This document shows positions 1,109-13,021 of a DNA stretch of 26,373 nt, one piece after another. Origin of the DNA: a virus; the IMG/VR virus record IMGVR_UViG_3300016486_000075, positions 1 to 26,373 of that record; one strand, written 5' to 3'. Position 1 is the stretch's first letter. Every line of letters starts with the position of its first letter. Position numbers and translations under genes: made by a program. Below the pieces are notes generated by a model. It did not search any database. It had not been told where the DNA came from and was given only the letters and a program-made list of their open reading frames with translations.

Positions 1109-2627
1109 ATACTCAGCCCAAGAAGAAATGGCGCTAATGAGTAGGCTATGGTCGCCTGCTATAAAAAACGACCCGTTAGCGTTTGTGCTGTTCACGTTTC
1201 CGTGGGGGCAAAAGGGCACACCGCTTGAGCACTTTACAGGCCCACGCAAATGGCAACGAGAAGTGCTACGCGATATAGCCCAACATATTAAAGAGAACAA
1301 CGGCAAGATTGACTTTAACACCTTGCGCTTGGCGGTAGCCAGTGGGCGGGGTATTGGCAAGTCGGCATTGGTAAGCTGGATAGTGCTGTGGTTTATGTCT
1401 ACTCGCGTTGGTGGCACGGGTATCGTGTCGGCTAACTCAGAAAGTCAGTTGCGAAGTGTGACGTGGGCTGAAATTACTAAATGGCTGTCGATGTCTATAA
1501 ACAGCTATTGGTGGGAGATTAGCGCAACAAGAGTGGCCCCCGCTAAATGGTTGGCTGAATTAGTTGAGCGCGACTTAAAGAAAGGCACGCGCTACTGGTC
1601 GCTAGAAGGCAGATTGTGGTCAGCAGAGAACCCCGATGCGTTTGCAGGTGTGCATAACTATGATGGCGTGATGTTGGTCTTTGACGAAGCATCAGGTATA
1701 GATGACTCTATCTGGGGTGTATCAAGCGGGTTCTTTACGGAGAACACACCGAATCGTTTTTGGTTGGCGTTCTCTAACCCCAGGCGTAACAGCGGGTACT
1801 TTTACGAATGCTTTAACGCCAAGCGTGACTTTTGGGTGACTAAGCAGATTGACGCAAGAACGGTTGAGGGTACGGATAAGAACGTGTATGAGCAGATTAT
1901 TGCTGAGTATGGGGCTGATTCGTACCAAGCGCACGTAGAGGTCTTTGGCTCATTCCCAAGCGAAGGCGATGATCAGTTCATACCTAGCCTAGTGGTGGAT
2001 GAAGCGATGGAGCGCCCCCTGTATAAAGATTTATCAGCCCCGATTGTGATTGGTGTTGACCCTGCACGGTTTGGTGCAGACGCAACCGTTATTGCGGTTA
2101 GGCGTGGCCGCGACATTATTGACATCCGTAAGTTCAGGGGTGACGATACGATGACAGTGGTTGGCCACGTCATTGAAGCCATAGAAGAATACAAGCCTGC
2201 GTTGGTTGTGATTGACGAAGGTGGGGTAGGCGGTGGGATCGTAGACAGGCTCAAAGAGCAACGCTATAAGATTCGCGGGGTTAACTTTGGCAGTAAGAGT
2301 AAGACACCACTCATGTACGGCAACTTGCGAGCCGAGATGTGGGGCAAGATGAAGGACTGGCTAAAGACGGCAAGCATACCGCAAGAGCGGGTGCTCAAGA
2401 CAGATTTAATTAGCCCTATGATGAAACCTGATTCTAAGGGTACAATCTTTTTAGAGTCAAAAAAAGACATGAAAGCGCGTGGCTTAGCCTCGCCTGATGC
2501 AGCCGATGCGATATGCGTGACATTTGCTTTTCCTGTGGCGCATCGTGAGTATAATGAAGCAGCACACAGAACACGACCTAACTTTCAAAACAGCAACAGC
2601 GTTGCAACTGGATGGATGGCATTTTAA
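1095..2627 (+). CDS. terL: Terminase large subunit
   Basis: This ATPase-nuclease motor (510 residues) pumps DNA into the prohead and cuts the concatemer. The N-terminal ATPase has Walker A SGRGIGKS at 83-90, Walker B MLVFDEAS at 193-200 and an AFSNP coupling-type motif at 225-229. The C-terminal RNase H-like nuclease shows VIGVDPARFGADA with D322, VVIDEGG near 374, and SPDAADA with D468/D471, which fits the metal-binding acid triad. The start is GTG 1095, preceded by AAGAAG and overlapping terS. ATG 1128, twelve codons on, is an alternative. A 50-residue gene follows immediately after the stop. Confidence 0.95.
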   Translation: MQEIRYSAQEEMALMSRLWSPAIKNDPLAFVLFTFPWGQKGTPLEHFTGPRKWQREVLRDIAQHIKENNGKIDFNTLRLAVASGRGIGKSALVSWIVLWFMSTRVGGTGIVSANSESQLRSVTWAEITKWLSMSINSYWWEISATRVAPAKWLAELVERDLKKGTRYWSLEGRLWSAENPDAFAGVHNYDGVMLVFDEASGIDDSIWGVSSGFFTENTPNRFWLAFSNPRRNSGYFYECFNAKRDFWVTKQIDARTVEGTDKNVYEQIIAEYGADSYQAHVEVFGSFPSEGDDQFIPSLVVDEAMERPLYKDLSAPIVIGVDPARFGADATVIAVRRGRDIIDIRKFRGDDTMTVVGHVIEAIEEYKPALVVIDEGGVGGGIVDRLKEQRYKIRGVNFGSKSKTPLMYGNLRAEMWGKMKDWLKTASIPQERVLKTDLISPMMKPDSKGTIFLESKKDMKARGLASPDAADAICVTFAFPVAHREYNEAAHRTRPNFQNSNSVATGWMAF

Positions 2628-2780
2628 ATGACTAAGAAACCTGGGCTTTACGCAAATATTAACGCCAAGCAAGAGCGCATCAAAGCAGGAAGCGGCGAAA
2701 AAATGAACAAAGTGGGCAGTAAGAACGCGCCCACAGCTAAAGACTTTAAAGATTCGGCTAAAACGGCTAAGAAAAAATGA
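2628..2780 (+). CDS. Small basic phage protein (50 aa)
   Basis: A 50-residue lysine-rich protein starts at the base after the terL stop and ends in an ATGA overlap with the GroES-like gene. It begins MTKKPGLYANINAKQERIK and ends in KTAKKK. It has the PGLYANI...K..RI..GS(G)EKM..PGSK pattern I recall from small proteins near packaging genes of other podo- and siphophages. No function is known to me. The strong basic charge suggests nucleic-acid or capsid contact (inference). The tight coupling on both sides argues that it is a real gene. Confidence 0.7.
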   Translation: MTKKPGLYANINAKQERIKAGSGEKMNKVGSKNAPTAKDFKDSAKTAKKK

Positions 2781-3040
2781 TTCGACCCTTGCATAACCAC
2801 GTCTTAGTCAAAGAAAACGCGCCAATCCCCCACCCGTTCTTGGTGTTGCCTTTAGAAGACACTTTAACGGGTACGGTTGTGGCTACTGGGCCAGGTAAAA
2901 GGCTACCAAACGGTAAATTACGGCCTATATTGGTGTCAGTAGGTGACAAAGTCAGGTTTAGCGGTACAATCGACGCAATGATTGATGGTTTTGCATTAAT
3001 GCAAGATAAAGACATTATTGGACTAGTCGATGAGCAATGA
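2777..3040 (+). CDS. GroES-like co-chaperonin
   Basis: The 87-residue protein resembles Cpn10/GroES, the lid of the GroEL folding chamber. It opens with IRPLHNHVLVK, matching the GroES start IRPLHDRVIVK. It has GTVVATGPGKRLPNGK and VSVGDKVRF strands in the expected order, and ends in the ALMQDKDIIGLVDE pattern like the GroES C-terminus. The mobile-loop region (about residues 13-30) is altered but retains hydrophobic FLVLP where GroES has the GroEL-binding IVL. It is coupled by ATGA to the 50-residue gene and overlaps the portal by 11 bp. It probably helps host GroEL fold a capsid or portal protein, as T4 gp31 does; the client is inferred. Confidence 0.88.
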   Translation: MIRPLHNHVLVKENAPIPHPFLVLPLEDTLTGTVVATGPGKRLPNGKLRPILVSVGDKVRFSGTIDAMIDGFALMQDKDIIGLVDEQ

Positions 3041-5546: not shown

Positions 5547-5849
5547 TTGGAACTTTTAAACCCTTTAGCTGATGCTAATTTTCCTGCACAAACCGTTGCT
5601 TTTACGGGTACGGCTGGTTCGACAACAGGCTGGAACGCAGGCCCGCAAGGCGTAGTAATTTGGGCAACTGAAGCCTGCTACGTTTTAGTAGGCGAAAACG
5701 CTACAGCTACAACTTCTAGCACTCCGATTCCCGCAAATACCCCGATTCCGTTTACAGTGCCTGGTGGTACAGGCGGTTTATGGCGGGTAAGCGCTATTCA
5801 AATATCGGCAGGCGGTACAGTTTACGCCAAACCTGTAAATATACGATGA
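5547..5849 (+). CDS. Beta-rich structural protein (unknown)
   Basis: The 100-residue protein is rich in Gly, Thr and Ala, with alternating hydrophobic strands and no membrane segment. It starts at TTG 5547, supported by AAGGAG six bases upstream. It ends in [11 protein letters not shown], and its stop overlaps the next ATG (ATGA, 5846-5849). Similar short beta proteins occur beside receptor-binding genes in podophages. A head decoration or fibre-base role is plausible, but I cannot name a family. Confidence 0.7.
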
Positions 5850-7660
5850 CTTGGGGCGATGGCGCTCGCAATGGGCTTTCTATTGGCTTATCTAGCCTTA
5901 TGGCGTTAGCTAAATCAGCGTTAGCCGCGGCGTTAAATTTAAACTTTATCGCCAACGACACGCTAGATCCTCGTATTACGTTTACGCGCGCGTCCACAGC
6001 TACCTACACAGATGTTGATGGCGTTCTCCAAACATCGGCTGTTAACGCGCCACGATTTGATTATGACCCTGTTACCCACGCGCCCTTGGGCTTGCTGCGG
6101 GAAGAGCAGAGGACTAATCTCGTACTAAACAGCGCGGTGCTGGTGACTCAGAACGTAACGGTTACAGCCGTTGCTCATACACTTAGTTTTTATGGCGCGG
6201 GTACAGTAACGTTATCAGGCACAGCAACAGCCACAGTCGTTGGTTTAGGTGCTTACCCATCACGCAAGACTTTTACTTTTACACCAACCGCAGGTACTTT
6301 AACCTTAACCGTTACAGGTTCGGTCACACTTGCACAACTAGAAGTTGGTGCATACGCTTCCTCATATATTCCAACAGCGGCATCACAAGTCACCCGCGCT
6401 GCCGATTCGGCTACGATGACCGGCGTTAATTTTACGTCTTGGTACGGCGCGGGCGGCACGATGATTGTTGATGTTAACATGCCCGTGTCGGGTATTATTT
6501 TGACCGCCGGTACAACAGATATGAGATCACCAGTTAATGGTGAGCGTATTTACGGGCAACCTTTCTTTCCTGCAACAACAAATACGTTAACTTTGGGTGT
6601 AGGTACATTTAGCCAAATCATTTATTACGCCAGCTATATCAATTACTCGGGGTTAATTACGCCTGTGGGCGCGCCTTCGTTAGCTTCCTTTGTAATGACC
6701 GTATTTATCAGTGCAGACGGTGGTACATTCCAATGGCCTAATCGTACAGGTACTCGTGGCGCAGTTATTAATTGGGGTGATGGTACAAGTGAAACCTCTA
6801 CAGGTGACTTGACTGCTAAGACTTATGCACTTGCGGGTTATTACGATATCAGTGTAACGGGTACATATACAGCGCCATTATTTAATAATGGTGGTGATAG
6901 GCTTAAATGTGTTGATGTACGTCAATGGGGTCAAGTCACAGGTATGACTACTTGGAATGCATCGTTTAGGGGTTGTGATAATTTAGTTGGGACAGCTACT
7001 GACGCACCTGTTTTAATTGGCGCGGTAAATAATATGTTTGAAGGCTGTACAGTATTTAACGGTGCAATAGGTAACTGGAACACAAGTGAAGTTACTAATA
7101 TGTCCCTTATGTTCTATCAAGCAACAGCATTTAACCAAGACATTGGTTCTTGGAACACAAGTGAAGTTACTAATATGAATAGTATGTTCTACGATGCAAC
7201 AGCATTTAACCAAGACATCGGTTCGTGGGATACAAGTGAAGTTACTGATATGACTAGTGTGTTCAACCGTGCATCAGCATTTAACCAAGACATTGGAAGT
7301 TGGAACACAAGCGCAGTTACTAATATGTTTGGTATGTTCGCAAACGTATCAGCATTTAACAACGGTGGTAGTGCAACTATAAACAACTGGAACACAAGTG
7401 CGGTTACTAATATGGCTTCTGTGTTTCAAAGCAATACAGCATTTAATCAAGACATTGGTTCGTGGAACACAGGTGCAGTTACTAATATGTTGCAAATGTT
7501 CCGACTCGCATCAGCATTTAACCAAGACTTATCGGGCATGGTAACAAGTCTAACAGCACAGCCAACCGCGTTCTCAACGAGCGCAAACGCTACTTTCGCT
7601 GACAACGCCAATGGGCTGAAGCCATACCTGTCTGATGGCGTGACTCAAATCACCACGTAA
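5846..7660 (+). CDS. Tail fibre/adhesin with PKD-like and DUF285 repeats
   Basis: This is a 604-residue receptor-binding candidate. Residues about 45-110 carry the phage-fibre motif [17 protein letters not shown] ... RFDYDP ... [15 protein letters not shown], followed by a Thr/Ala-rich jelly-roll-like stretch to about 190. A PKD-like segment with NWGDGTSE lies near 305-345. Residues about 400-560 are BspA/DUF285-type leucine-rich repeats of 25 residues with the core [16 protein letters not shown]. ATG 5846 is chosen because it forms an ATGA overlap with the previous gene; an in-frame ATG at 5780 would add 22 residues read through that gene. It probably binds host-surface protein or sugar. Confidence 0.82.
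7052..7530 (+). repeat. 75-bp tandem repeats encoding DUF285 units
   Basis: The anchor GCATTTAACCAAGACAT, or a close variant, recurs at 7052, 7127, 7202, 7277, 7352, 7439 and 7514. The period is exactly 75 bp (25 codons) except for one 87-bp step, a four-codon insertion in the fifth unit. The central copies are very similar at the DNA level, which suggests recent expansion by recombination. Confidence 0.9.
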
Positions 7661-10279: not shown

Positions 10280-11065
10280 ATGAGTGAAGAAGTCCAAAAC
10301 TTAGCGGAAAGTACAGAAGTACCCGTGCCAGAGCAGGAAGTCACAGCGGCTACCCAATCTGAAGAAACACAAACGCTGGAAGTAGAGCAGACAGAAAACA
10401 CCAAGTCATTCTCGCAAGAAGAACTTGATGCTATTGTCAGCAAACGGCTTGCAAGAGAGCAGCGAAAATGGGAAAGAGAAACGCGAACGCGACAGGAACA
10501 AACCCCTGTTACGCCTAGATATACTCCCGCGCTAGACCAATTTGAATCAGTAGAAGCGTATGCCGAAGCATTGGCTACACAAAAAGCCGAGCAAATGGTA
10601 CAGCAAAGAGAAGCTCAAAAGCAGCAATCGCAAGTCTTAGACGTCTATAACGACCTTGAAGAAGAAGCGCGAGGTAAATACAACGACTTTGAACAAGTCG
10701 CGTATAACCCTAACCTTCCAATCACGACTGTTATGGCTGAAACGATTCGATCTTCGGATGTAGGGCCTGATGTAGCTTACTACTTAGGTGCTAACCCCAA
10801 AGAAGCCGATCGTATTTCTAAACTAGCTCCTTACTTACAAGCAAAAGAATTGGGTAAGATCGAGGTTAAAGTAACCGACAATCCACCCACCAAGAAAACG
10901 TCAAGCGCCCCCGCGCCGATTAGCCCTGTTACTGCTCGTGGTAACTCCGCAAAGTCTTATGACACAACAGATTCACGCTCTATCAAAGATATGAGCACAT
11001 CTGAGTGGATTGAGGCAGAACGGGCAAGGCAAATCAAAAAGTGGGAAGCGCAACGCAACCGCTAA
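10280..11065 (+). CDS. Capsid scaffolding protein
   Basis: The 261-residue protein directs coat assembly and leaves before or during packaging. It sits directly before the coat gene. It has an acidic Glu/Gln/Thr-rich N-terminus (about 1-45), a charged helix with SQEELDAIVSKRLAREQRKWERE at 44-66 that is typical of phage scaffolds, a Gln-rich middle and a basic, helical C-terminus ending WEAQRNR. The P22 scaffold uses a basic C-terminal helix-turn-helix to bind coat, and the charge pattern here is similar. Seventeen bases separate it from the coat GTG. Confidence 0.88.
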   Translation: MSEEVQNLAESTEVPVPEQEVTAATQSEETQTLEVEQTENTKSFSQEELDAIVSKRLAREQRKWERETRTRQEQTPVTPRYTPALDQFESVEAYAEALATQKAEQMVQQREAQKQQSQVLDVYNDLEEEARGKYNDFEQVAYNPNLPITTVMAETIRSSDVGPDVAYYLGANPKEADRISKLAPYLQAKELGKIEVKVTDNPPTKKTSSAPAPISPVTARGNSAKSYDTTDSRSIKDMSTSEWIEAERARQIKKWEAQRNR

Positions 11066-11081
11066 CTTTTAAGGAAATATC

Positions 11082-11178
11082 GTGGCTAATTCGATTCTCA
11101 CAATTGATATGATTACAAGAAAAAGTTTAGAAATACTTGAAAACAATCTTGTACTCACCCGTAACGTTAATCGTCAGT
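11082..11178 (+). CDS. Major capsid protein, exon 1
   Basis: This exon encodes residues 1-32 and the first base of codon 33 of the coat protein. It starts at GTG 11082, with AAGGAA (11071-11076) upstream, and reads VANSILTIDMITRKSLEILEN and onward to VNRQ. The frame would stop at the TAA one base later if unspliced. Ending the exon after T11178 and joining A11916 gives CAG-TAT-GAC-GAT, so the chain continues NRQ-Y-DDSFALQGAKIGATLR, as expected for this family. The exon was recognised from the frame, the splice chemistry and homology; splicing is not demonstrated here. Confidence 0.88.
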
Positions 11179-11915
11179 AAACGAAAGTCTAGCTGACGCT
11201 AAACCCCGTTAATTGCTGGAAACCCCTTAGAGCATCATGCACCACAGCGCAATTGGAAACGATAATCGCGAAGGTTTGAAAAGAATGATGATTGGGCAAT
11301 CAGCAGCCAAGCGTCTTATCATTAAACATGGTATGATGAAGGTTCAACGACTAGTTGGAAACAACGTAGAGCCAAGTGGCTCGAAAAGCGGGGCAGACAT
11401 AAAACAGCCGATAGAAAGTAGGTTTTTTGCCAAAGTCAAGAAGTCTGACAATGGTTGCCACGAATGGACTGGGAGTATCGCACCAAATGGTTACGGTAAC
11501 TTTCATAGAGACGGGAAAACAGCATACGCCCACAGAGTAGCGTGGGAGTTAGCGAATAACACAGTAGCTGCGTATGTGCTGCACACTTGTAATAATCGCA
11601 AATGCGTTAACCCAGACCACCTGTTTACTGGCTCCTTTAACGACAATATGACCGACATGGTTAGTAAGCAACGTCAAGCACATGGTGAACGTAACGGACA
11701 CCACAAATTGACAGCCGACCTAGTAAGGCAGATACGTTCTGAAATCGGGTTGCAGCGAGAAATCGCCGCTAAGTACGGAGTTACAGCATCGTTAGTTTCG
11801 ATGATTCGTAGCGGTCGAATTTGGCGTCTTGTTTGAAGATATAGTCTGTTCTGCGGTGAAAGCCGTAGCTGCGTAAAGCGGGCATAGCCTAACGACCTAT
11901 GCTGAACATAAAAAG
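11179..11915 (+). ncRNA. Group I self-splicing intron in capsid gene
   Basis: A 737-nt intron with the classical conserved elements: P AATTGCTGGAAACCCC (11211-11226), Q AATCAGCAGCCAAGC (11298-11312), R GTTCAACGACTAG (11342-11354) and S AAGATATAGTC (11836-11846). P1 pairs exon CGTCAGT (11172-11178) with the internal guide GCTGACG (11192-11198), giving the hallmark U-G wobble at the splice site. P3 is CCCCGT/GCGGGG (11204-11209/11388-11393). P7 is GACTA/TAGTC (11349-11353/11842-11846). A P7.1-type hairpin GAGCC-AAGT-GGCTC lies at 11369-11382, suggesting subgroup IA. P9-like hairpins sit at 11851-11868 (GAAA loop) and 11882-11902. It ends in G11915. The HNH gene is inserted around P8. Confidence 0.93.
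11237..11836 (+). CDS. HNH homing endonuclease in intron
   Basis: This protein would cut intron-less coat alleles and so spread the intron. The core is CHEWTG ... NGYGNF ... YAHRVAWEL ... VLHTCNNRKCVNPDHLFTGS, an HNH-3 type nuclease with the histidine in the AHR strand and the C..KCVNPDHL ligand loop. DNMTDMVSKQR follows, then a C-terminal helix-turn-helix (about 155-199, LTADLVRQI ... IAAKYGVTASLVSMIRSGRIW). The frame is open from ATG 11237 (199 residues), but the first part overlaps the Q and R elements. ATG 11285 (AAGG ten bases upstream, 183 residues) or ATG 11336 may be the true start. The stop overlaps the S element. Confidence 0.9.
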   Translation: MHHSAIGNDNREGLKRMMIGQSAAKRLIIKHGMMKVQRLVGNNVEPSGSKSGADIKQPIESRFFAKVKKSDNGCHEWTGSIAPNGYGNFHRDGKTAYAHRVAWELANNTVAAYVLHTCNNRKCVNPDHLFTGSFNDNMTDMVSKQRQAHGERNGHHKLTADLVRQIRSEIGLQREIAAKYGVTASLVSMIRSGRIWRLV

Positions 11916-13021
11916 ATGACGATTCGTTTGCATTACAAGGCGCTAAGATTGGCGCCACATTGCGTATCCGTTTACCTGACCGTACTTTAGTAACCGACGG
12001 TGCAACCCTTGCGGTTCAAGATGACAATGAGCAATTTACAACTCTAAGCGTTTCTTCGCAAAAGCATATTGGCGTAAACTTCAGTTCAGCCGAATTGACA
12101 ATGCAAATGGATGACTTTGCAGAACGTGTGCTTAAGCCTCGTATCAGCCAATTGGCTGCTTCAATTGACGCAAACGTTGCTGACAGCTATTTGAGCATTG
12201 CCAACACTGTTGGTACGCCAGGCTCAACACCTTCGACTTCTTTAGTCTTGTTGCAAGCTCAACAAAAACTAAACGAAAACGCGGCTGTTATGTCACCACG
12301 TTACGCAACTGTTAGCCCCGCAGCCAACGCAGGTTTGGTTGAAGGCTTAAAAGGTTTGTTCAATCCTACTGACACCGTTTCACGCCAATTCAAAAATGGC
12401 ATGATGGGTACAGGCGTATTAGGCTATGAAGAAATCAACATGAGCCAATCAATCAAGCAATTTACGACTGGTACTCGTGGTGCAACAGGCAACACAACTT
12501 CTGCTGCTGTGGCCGCTGAAGGCGCTACATCAATTGCGCTGACCGTGGCTTCGGGTGTAACAATCAAAGCGGGTGACGTTTTCACAATAGCTGATTGCTT
12601 TGCTGTTAACCCGCAGACTCGTGAATCTACAGGTTCATTGGCTCAGTTTGTTGCTGTCGCTAACGTAACCGCTTCTGGCACTGCTGTGACTGTTACTGTT
12701 GCTCCTGTCTACTCAGCCGCTAGCCCATTGGCTACGGTTGACGTCTTGCCTGGTACCGCTAAAGCTGTTGTGTTTGTTGGTGCTGCAAGCACACAATATC
12801 CACAAAACTTGGTCTACCATAAAGATGCGATCACTTTTGCAACCGCTGACTTGCTTATGCCTCAAGGTGTAGACATGGCATCACGTCAAGTGCATAACGG
12901 CATTTCAATGCGTATTGTTCGTCAATATGACATTAATAATGACCGCATGCCATGTCGAATTGATGTACTCTATGGTTTTTCAGTGATTCGCCCACAAATG
13001 GCCGTTCGTTTATGGGGTTAA
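11916..13021 (+). CDS. Major capsid protein, P22-type, exon 2
   Basis: The main exon of the coat protein; the spliced product is 400 residues. The sequence matches the P22 coat-like family: GAKIGATLRIRLPDR early, then SVSSQKHIGVNFSSAELTMQ, a helical LKPRISQLAASIDANVADSY spine, VMSPRYATVSPAAN, GTGVLGYEEINMSQSI, a beta-rich insertion with VTIKAGDVFTI, and the closing VNGISMRIVRQYDINNDRMPC-type segment (here HNGISMRIVRQYD) before RIDVLYGFSVIRPQMAVRLWG. No sensible start lies in the exon: TTG 11960 begins mid-domain. The gene ends just before a strong terminator. Confidence 0.93.

Follow-up and report, generated by a model that had tools for sequence, protein, structure and literature searches.

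Coat gene and splice joint

The window, that is, the whole stretch of DNA analysed here (26,373 nt; positions 1 to 26,373 of IMG/VR record IMGVR_UViG_3300016486_000075), contains a coat gene in two parts; all window features described below lie on the plus strand. Exon 1 (11082..11178) comprises 32 codons from a GTG start plus the first base of codon 33, and its N-terminus matches that of 81 intronless relatives, namely the closest coat genes in IMG/VR and two GenBank phages (H1 and H2). Exon 2 (11916..13021) matches P22_CoatProtein (PF11651; 2.5e-30) at 106.1 bits, above the Pfam cut-off of 24 bits. A scaffolding protein gene lies immediately upstream of the coat (10280..11065; phrog_8865 head scaffolding protein, 2e-31) and a P22-like portal is among the neighbours (Pfam P22_portal, 2.8e-174), so score and neighbourhood together identify the coat as P22-type. 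Elsewhere in the window, a GroES-like co-chaperonin (2777-3040; Cpn10, 1e-8) is encoded between the large terminase and portal genes, and a 626-aa protein with DUF285 repeats (5780-7660; 2.8e-62), a repeat best known from Mycoplasma surface proteins, between the portal and tail-spike-like genes.

The original prediction held that a P22-type coat frame halts after 32 codons and that joining T11178 to A11916 restores the motif NRQ-Y, and both statements were borne out. From GTG 11082 the frame runs for 32 codons into a TAA made of T11178 and the first two bases (AA) of the intron; with 11179-11915 taken out, an open 400-aa coat reading ...NLVLTRNVNRQ-Y-DDSFALQGAKIG... results. The same joint is uninterrupted in 81/81 intronless relatives and is therefore independent of any intron model. 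On letters alone the joint is ambiguous by one base, A being the first letter of both the intron and exon 2. In group I introns, a U precedes the 5' splice site and a G ends the intron; this rule, together with the T-starting introns of relatives L171 and L173, pins the joint to 11178/11916 (L-numbers are labels of relatives' contigs, mostly from IMG/VR). The gene is split as predicted, and the predicted resumption of the frame 738 nt on needs correction: the intron is 737 nt long, 738 being the coordinate difference.

Group I intron and its fold

The intron (11179..11915; 737 nt, ending in G) is recognized by the Rfam group I covariance model RF00028, whose match at 11141-11868 spans the full model (1-253) at 81.8 bits (E 1.3e-19) against a gathering score of 50 bits and is the sole Rfam match above cut-off in the window; relatives have introns at the identical site. 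This was the search proposed with the prediction of a group I intron, and on both points that could be checked by computation the prediction stood, a covariance-model match being present and the homologues agreeing with the joint.

Pairing was assessed in a structural alignment of the window with 30 distinct introns (31 rows in all), in which the predicted P1 with its U-G wobble, P3 and P7 were all recovered. P1 joins the exon strand GUCAGU (11173..11178), whose terminal U pairs with G, to the internal guide strand GCUGAC (11192..11197), with 186/186 cells paired; the U-G pair at the 5' site is found in all alignment rows and the terminal G in all extracted introns. A compensatory change across the splice site occurs in L171, where GTGAGT in the exon (Q to E) is matched by GCTCAC in the guide, turning C-G into G-C, and this is the one P1 pair with a double-sided change. 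A proposed P10 strand, GUC (11187..11189), could pair with exon 2 GAC (11918-11920); the three pairs form in 29/30 introns, with a double-sided change once (AUC/GAU in one intron). Within the core, P3 (CCCCGU at 11204..11209 with GCGGGG at 11388-11393) is paired in 184/186 cells with double changes in two pairs, P4 in 186/186 cells, and P7 in 122/124 cells. The 5' strand of P7 (ACUA, 11350-11353) closes the R element (11341..11353), and its partner (UAGU, 11842-11845) lies in the S element (11836..11847), which is delimited by the RF00028 match and the alignment. The P7.1 and P7.2 hairpins (11354..11382) show double changes in 4/4 and 4/5 pairs, and the P9 hairpin with its GAAA loop (11851..11868) is paired in 186/186 cells with double changes in 5/6 pairs. 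P1, P3, P7.1, P7.2 and P9 are thus maintained by covariation. A P8 helix (AGAC/GUCU) was proposed and then dropped, with pairing in just 58/120 cells of the alignment; P9.1 and P9.2 are poorly registered in the 31 rows and neither is claimed.

Introns of subgroup IA have two hairpins between P7 and P3, and here P7.1 and P7.2, both present and covarying, lie between the P7 5' and P3 3' strands. We assign the intron to subgroup IA, within which it may be IA2-like. Subgroup IA is the usual one among phage introns (PMC11878797).

HNH endonuclease gene

The intron also holds, as predicted, an open frame for an HNH endonuclease of up to 199 aa (11237..11836), matching phrog_1872 (9.9e-31) and other HNH families in PHROGs, and the HNH_3 domain at 25.5 bits, barely above the Pfam cut-off of 24.8 bits. 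Its start is uncertain (ATG 11237, 11285 or 11336) and it terminates at the edge of the S element; it occupies the stretch between the P3 and P7 3' strands, which by position is the P8 loop. In most relatives the frame is open from within the ribozyme core to the S-element stop; in L100, L169 and L170 only a later start is available to it, and the start is not fixed across relatives. A phmmer search of the PDB returned no credible chain for the HNH protein and no endonuclease match, I-HmuI included.

Two relatives depart from this arrangement. L098 has a 320-nt version of the intron in its coat gene, without the endonuclease gene, and L210 has a different HNH gene (1573-1968, minus strand) inside an intron whose ribozyme, guide and coat site are as in the window, an endonuclease swap. 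Since one form lacks the frame and the other has exchanged it, ribozyme and nuclease are separable, as expected for mobile introns. A free-standing HNH gene, 42% identical to that of the window, is found in MW202691 (26358-26801; hit H63), where it directly follows a P22-like coat gene that appears to lack an intron.

Distribution of the intron in related viruses

Introns of relatives were gathered by three scans, for an intron 3' end beside the coat joint, for the HNH protein and for the P1/guide motif CAGTAAACGNAAGTCTAGCTGAC. The closest copies, from other IMG/VR samples, have the same junctions and are 100% (L099 and L151) and 98.6% (L003) identical to the window's intron; where they align with it, L099 and L151 represent nearly the same phage. 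The exact motif occurs in 38 IMG/VR contigs, in all 38 within P22-like coat genes at the end of exon 1. These contigs share one insertion codon and include coats about 36-40% identical to that of the window; in 37/38 the joint restores the coat frame with NRQ-Y or a near equivalent, and the remaining contig, L211, is cut off. More divergent introns occupy the same coat codon in L100, L169, L170, L171 and L173, and the intron-bearing coats as a whole range from near identity down to about 36% amino-acid identity with that of the window. A search of 84,980 species genomes of bacteria and archaea gave no match to the exact motif, and hence no prophage source was found. A split coat gene in L083 (GenBank MW202674; 3001-4528), considered as a second GenBank case, was dropped for want of an RF00028 match at E 0.1; its annotation divides this P22-like coat into two pieces separated by a short gene, which may reflect a frameshift or an intron missed by Rfam.

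The window is the lone intron bearer in its clade of the coat tree, which has 55 rows, 54 of them intronless (95% branch support), and the intronless L084 falls within an intron-bearing clade, next to L208. Intron cores are 77-87% identical and HNH proteins 56-62% identical where coats are 36-47% identical; the core of the window is 86% identical both to that of L171 (coat 43%) and to that of L119 (coat 77%). Homing fits this pattern, because presence is patchy and core similarity ignores coat distance; part of the high core identity could be due to constraint and not to recent transfer.

The target, GTCAGT or GTGAGT, is present in 25/25 intron bearers and 17/55 intronless rows (Fisher 7e-10), a difference that corresponds to only 2-3 independent changes on the tree, so the link between intron and target codon is statistically inseparable from ancestry. 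The intronless set was picked for closeness to the window's coat; frequencies of filled and empty sites are therefore no estimates. The window's nearest intronless relatives read CGC where intron bearers read CGTCAGT (with one exception, CGTGAGT), a difference that we take as a lead only. Across the 48 nt that open exon 2, identity of the window is 67-81% with intron bearers and 65-71% with its intronless sisters; from +200 to +700 the order is mostly reversed, with the window nearer its intronless sisters. This contrast is no more than suggestive of a co-conversion tract in exon 2.

Further insertion sites in a sister coat lineage

Additional inserts were found in a sister P22-type lineage whose coat is about 39% identical to that of the window and whose intronless members read ...LLTINMITREAVRLWKNSNAFLQNVDMQYDD... 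L115/L216 has inserts at three points of a single gene, following T-I, N-A and V-D; L090/L221 has the first (T-I) and third (V-D), L114/L220 the third (V-D), and L224 and L274 the second (N-A). Rfam matches above cut-off were obtained for two of the three inserts of L115 and both of those of L090; the middle insert of L115 had no Rfam match at E 0.001. L109 is also a sister P22-type coat gene among those with one to three introns in the first 31 codons.

The three sister-lineage sites and that of the window make four insertion sites in the first 33 codons. We suggest, tentatively and as a doubtful rather than a favoured extension, that these codons are a hotspot for serial, independent group I invasion, in which the window's intron would represent one site-specific lineage spread over very different coats; its bearers may profit from cleaving the coat genes of relatives in the same cell, and relatives may escape by synonymous replacement of CGT with CGC.

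Proposed mechanism and alternatives

The locus has the anatomy of a group I intron, an exact joint and conserved, covarying helices, and its insertion site is fixed in dozens of phages with a patchy distribution. We give a probability of about 95% to the element being a mobile, site-specific group I intron with an HNH homing endonuclease, and from sequence we infer splicing in the cell, DNA cleavage and homing. The coat pre-mRNA would fold into a ribozyme, with the intron sitting in coat codon 33; an external guanosine would attack just 3' of U11178, the U of the P1 U-G pair. The end of exon 1 thus freed would then attack after G11915, joining 11178 to 11916 and yielding the 400-aa coat. Unspliced RNA would give only a 32-residue stub, and virion production can soundly be expected to depend on splicing. 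At the DNA level, the HNH endonuclease would cleave alleles that lack the intron, at this conserved coat site or close to it, and the intron would be copied in by repair.

An intron that still splices and has lost its mobility, with an HNH protein that is unmade or inactive and with vertical inheritance, would account for a frame that extends into the ribozyme core and lacks a clearly conserved start, and for the joint climb of intron and coat divergence within the near clade. However, the frame is intact in nearly all relatives and stops at a constant place, the positions of the window and L084 in the coat tree do not match their intron status, and L210 has a different HNH gene in the same intron; we regard loss of mobility as unlikely.

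Much less probable still is a broken coat gene, in which the insert goes unspliced and the phage either is defective or begins the coat at a second start codon inside exon 2. A TTG start at 11960 would permit the latter, but every relative conserves the N-terminal arm, pairing in the core is maintained, and dozens of independent contigs share the arrangement with exon 2 intact. Nothing was found in favour of an assembly chimera, in which the intron of another phage was joined to this coat gene; independent assemblies carry the intron at 98.6-100% identity with the same junctions, and these contigs from other samples (L099, L151 and L003) refute assembly error, leaving it a negligible probability. 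The mobile, spliced intron is thus our preferred reading.

Known systems and significance

Phage introns of the SPO1 I-HmuI type are IA introns with HNH genes and two hairpins between P7 and P3, as in the window, and orf142 of phage Twort has three group I introns in one gene. The latter parallels L115 in the number of introns per gene and differs in gene and phage, the three of L115 falling within about 31 coat codons. In Bastillevirinae phages, introns are mostly IA-like with HNH genes in a loop; they occupy DNA polymerase, terminase, ribonucleotide reductase and other genes, whereas that of the window is in the coat gene (PMC11878797). The closest published parallel in gene type is mycobacteriophage LittleE, whose major capsid gene intron contains an endonuclease gene and was shown to splice by RT-PCR and N-terminal sequencing (PMC3706429). 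As in the window, a tailed-phage major capsid gene is interrupted, the endonuclease gene lies inside, U precedes the intron and G ends it; unlike the window, the capsid is of the HK97 type from a siphovirus, the intron is about 819 bp long at a different insertion site, and the endonuclease gene is on the opposite strand and was likened by its authors to LAGLIDADG proteins (PMC3706429). A group I intron in the capsid-subunit gene of lactococcal phage Tuc2009, as cited in PMC3706429, is similar in kind and concerns an unrelated phage and another site.

Capsid-gene introns with endonuclease genes are thus already established, and the rarity implied by the original prediction was overstated, given these published cases and how common the same intron is in related uncultured phages. 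Our search, confined to open-access papers, found no description of a group I intron in P22-type coats; what is added here is an unusually well populated site family. An intron endonuclease of phage PhiPA3 is reported to aid the phage against a co-infecting rival (PMC11620839), which makes the competition reading worth testing in P22-type coats.

Automatic annotation would misread coat genes of this group as two pieces. The coat gene is normally the most heavily expressed late gene; with the intron in it, efficient RNA folding would be a precondition for every virion. The family amounts to a natural experiment: at a single site it offers about 30 introns that differ from one another, in coats whose identity runs from 36 to 100%, with both occupied and empty alleles and with forms whose ORF is missing or swapped. 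Homing, co-conversion and target escape can therefore be tested directly in a capsid gene.
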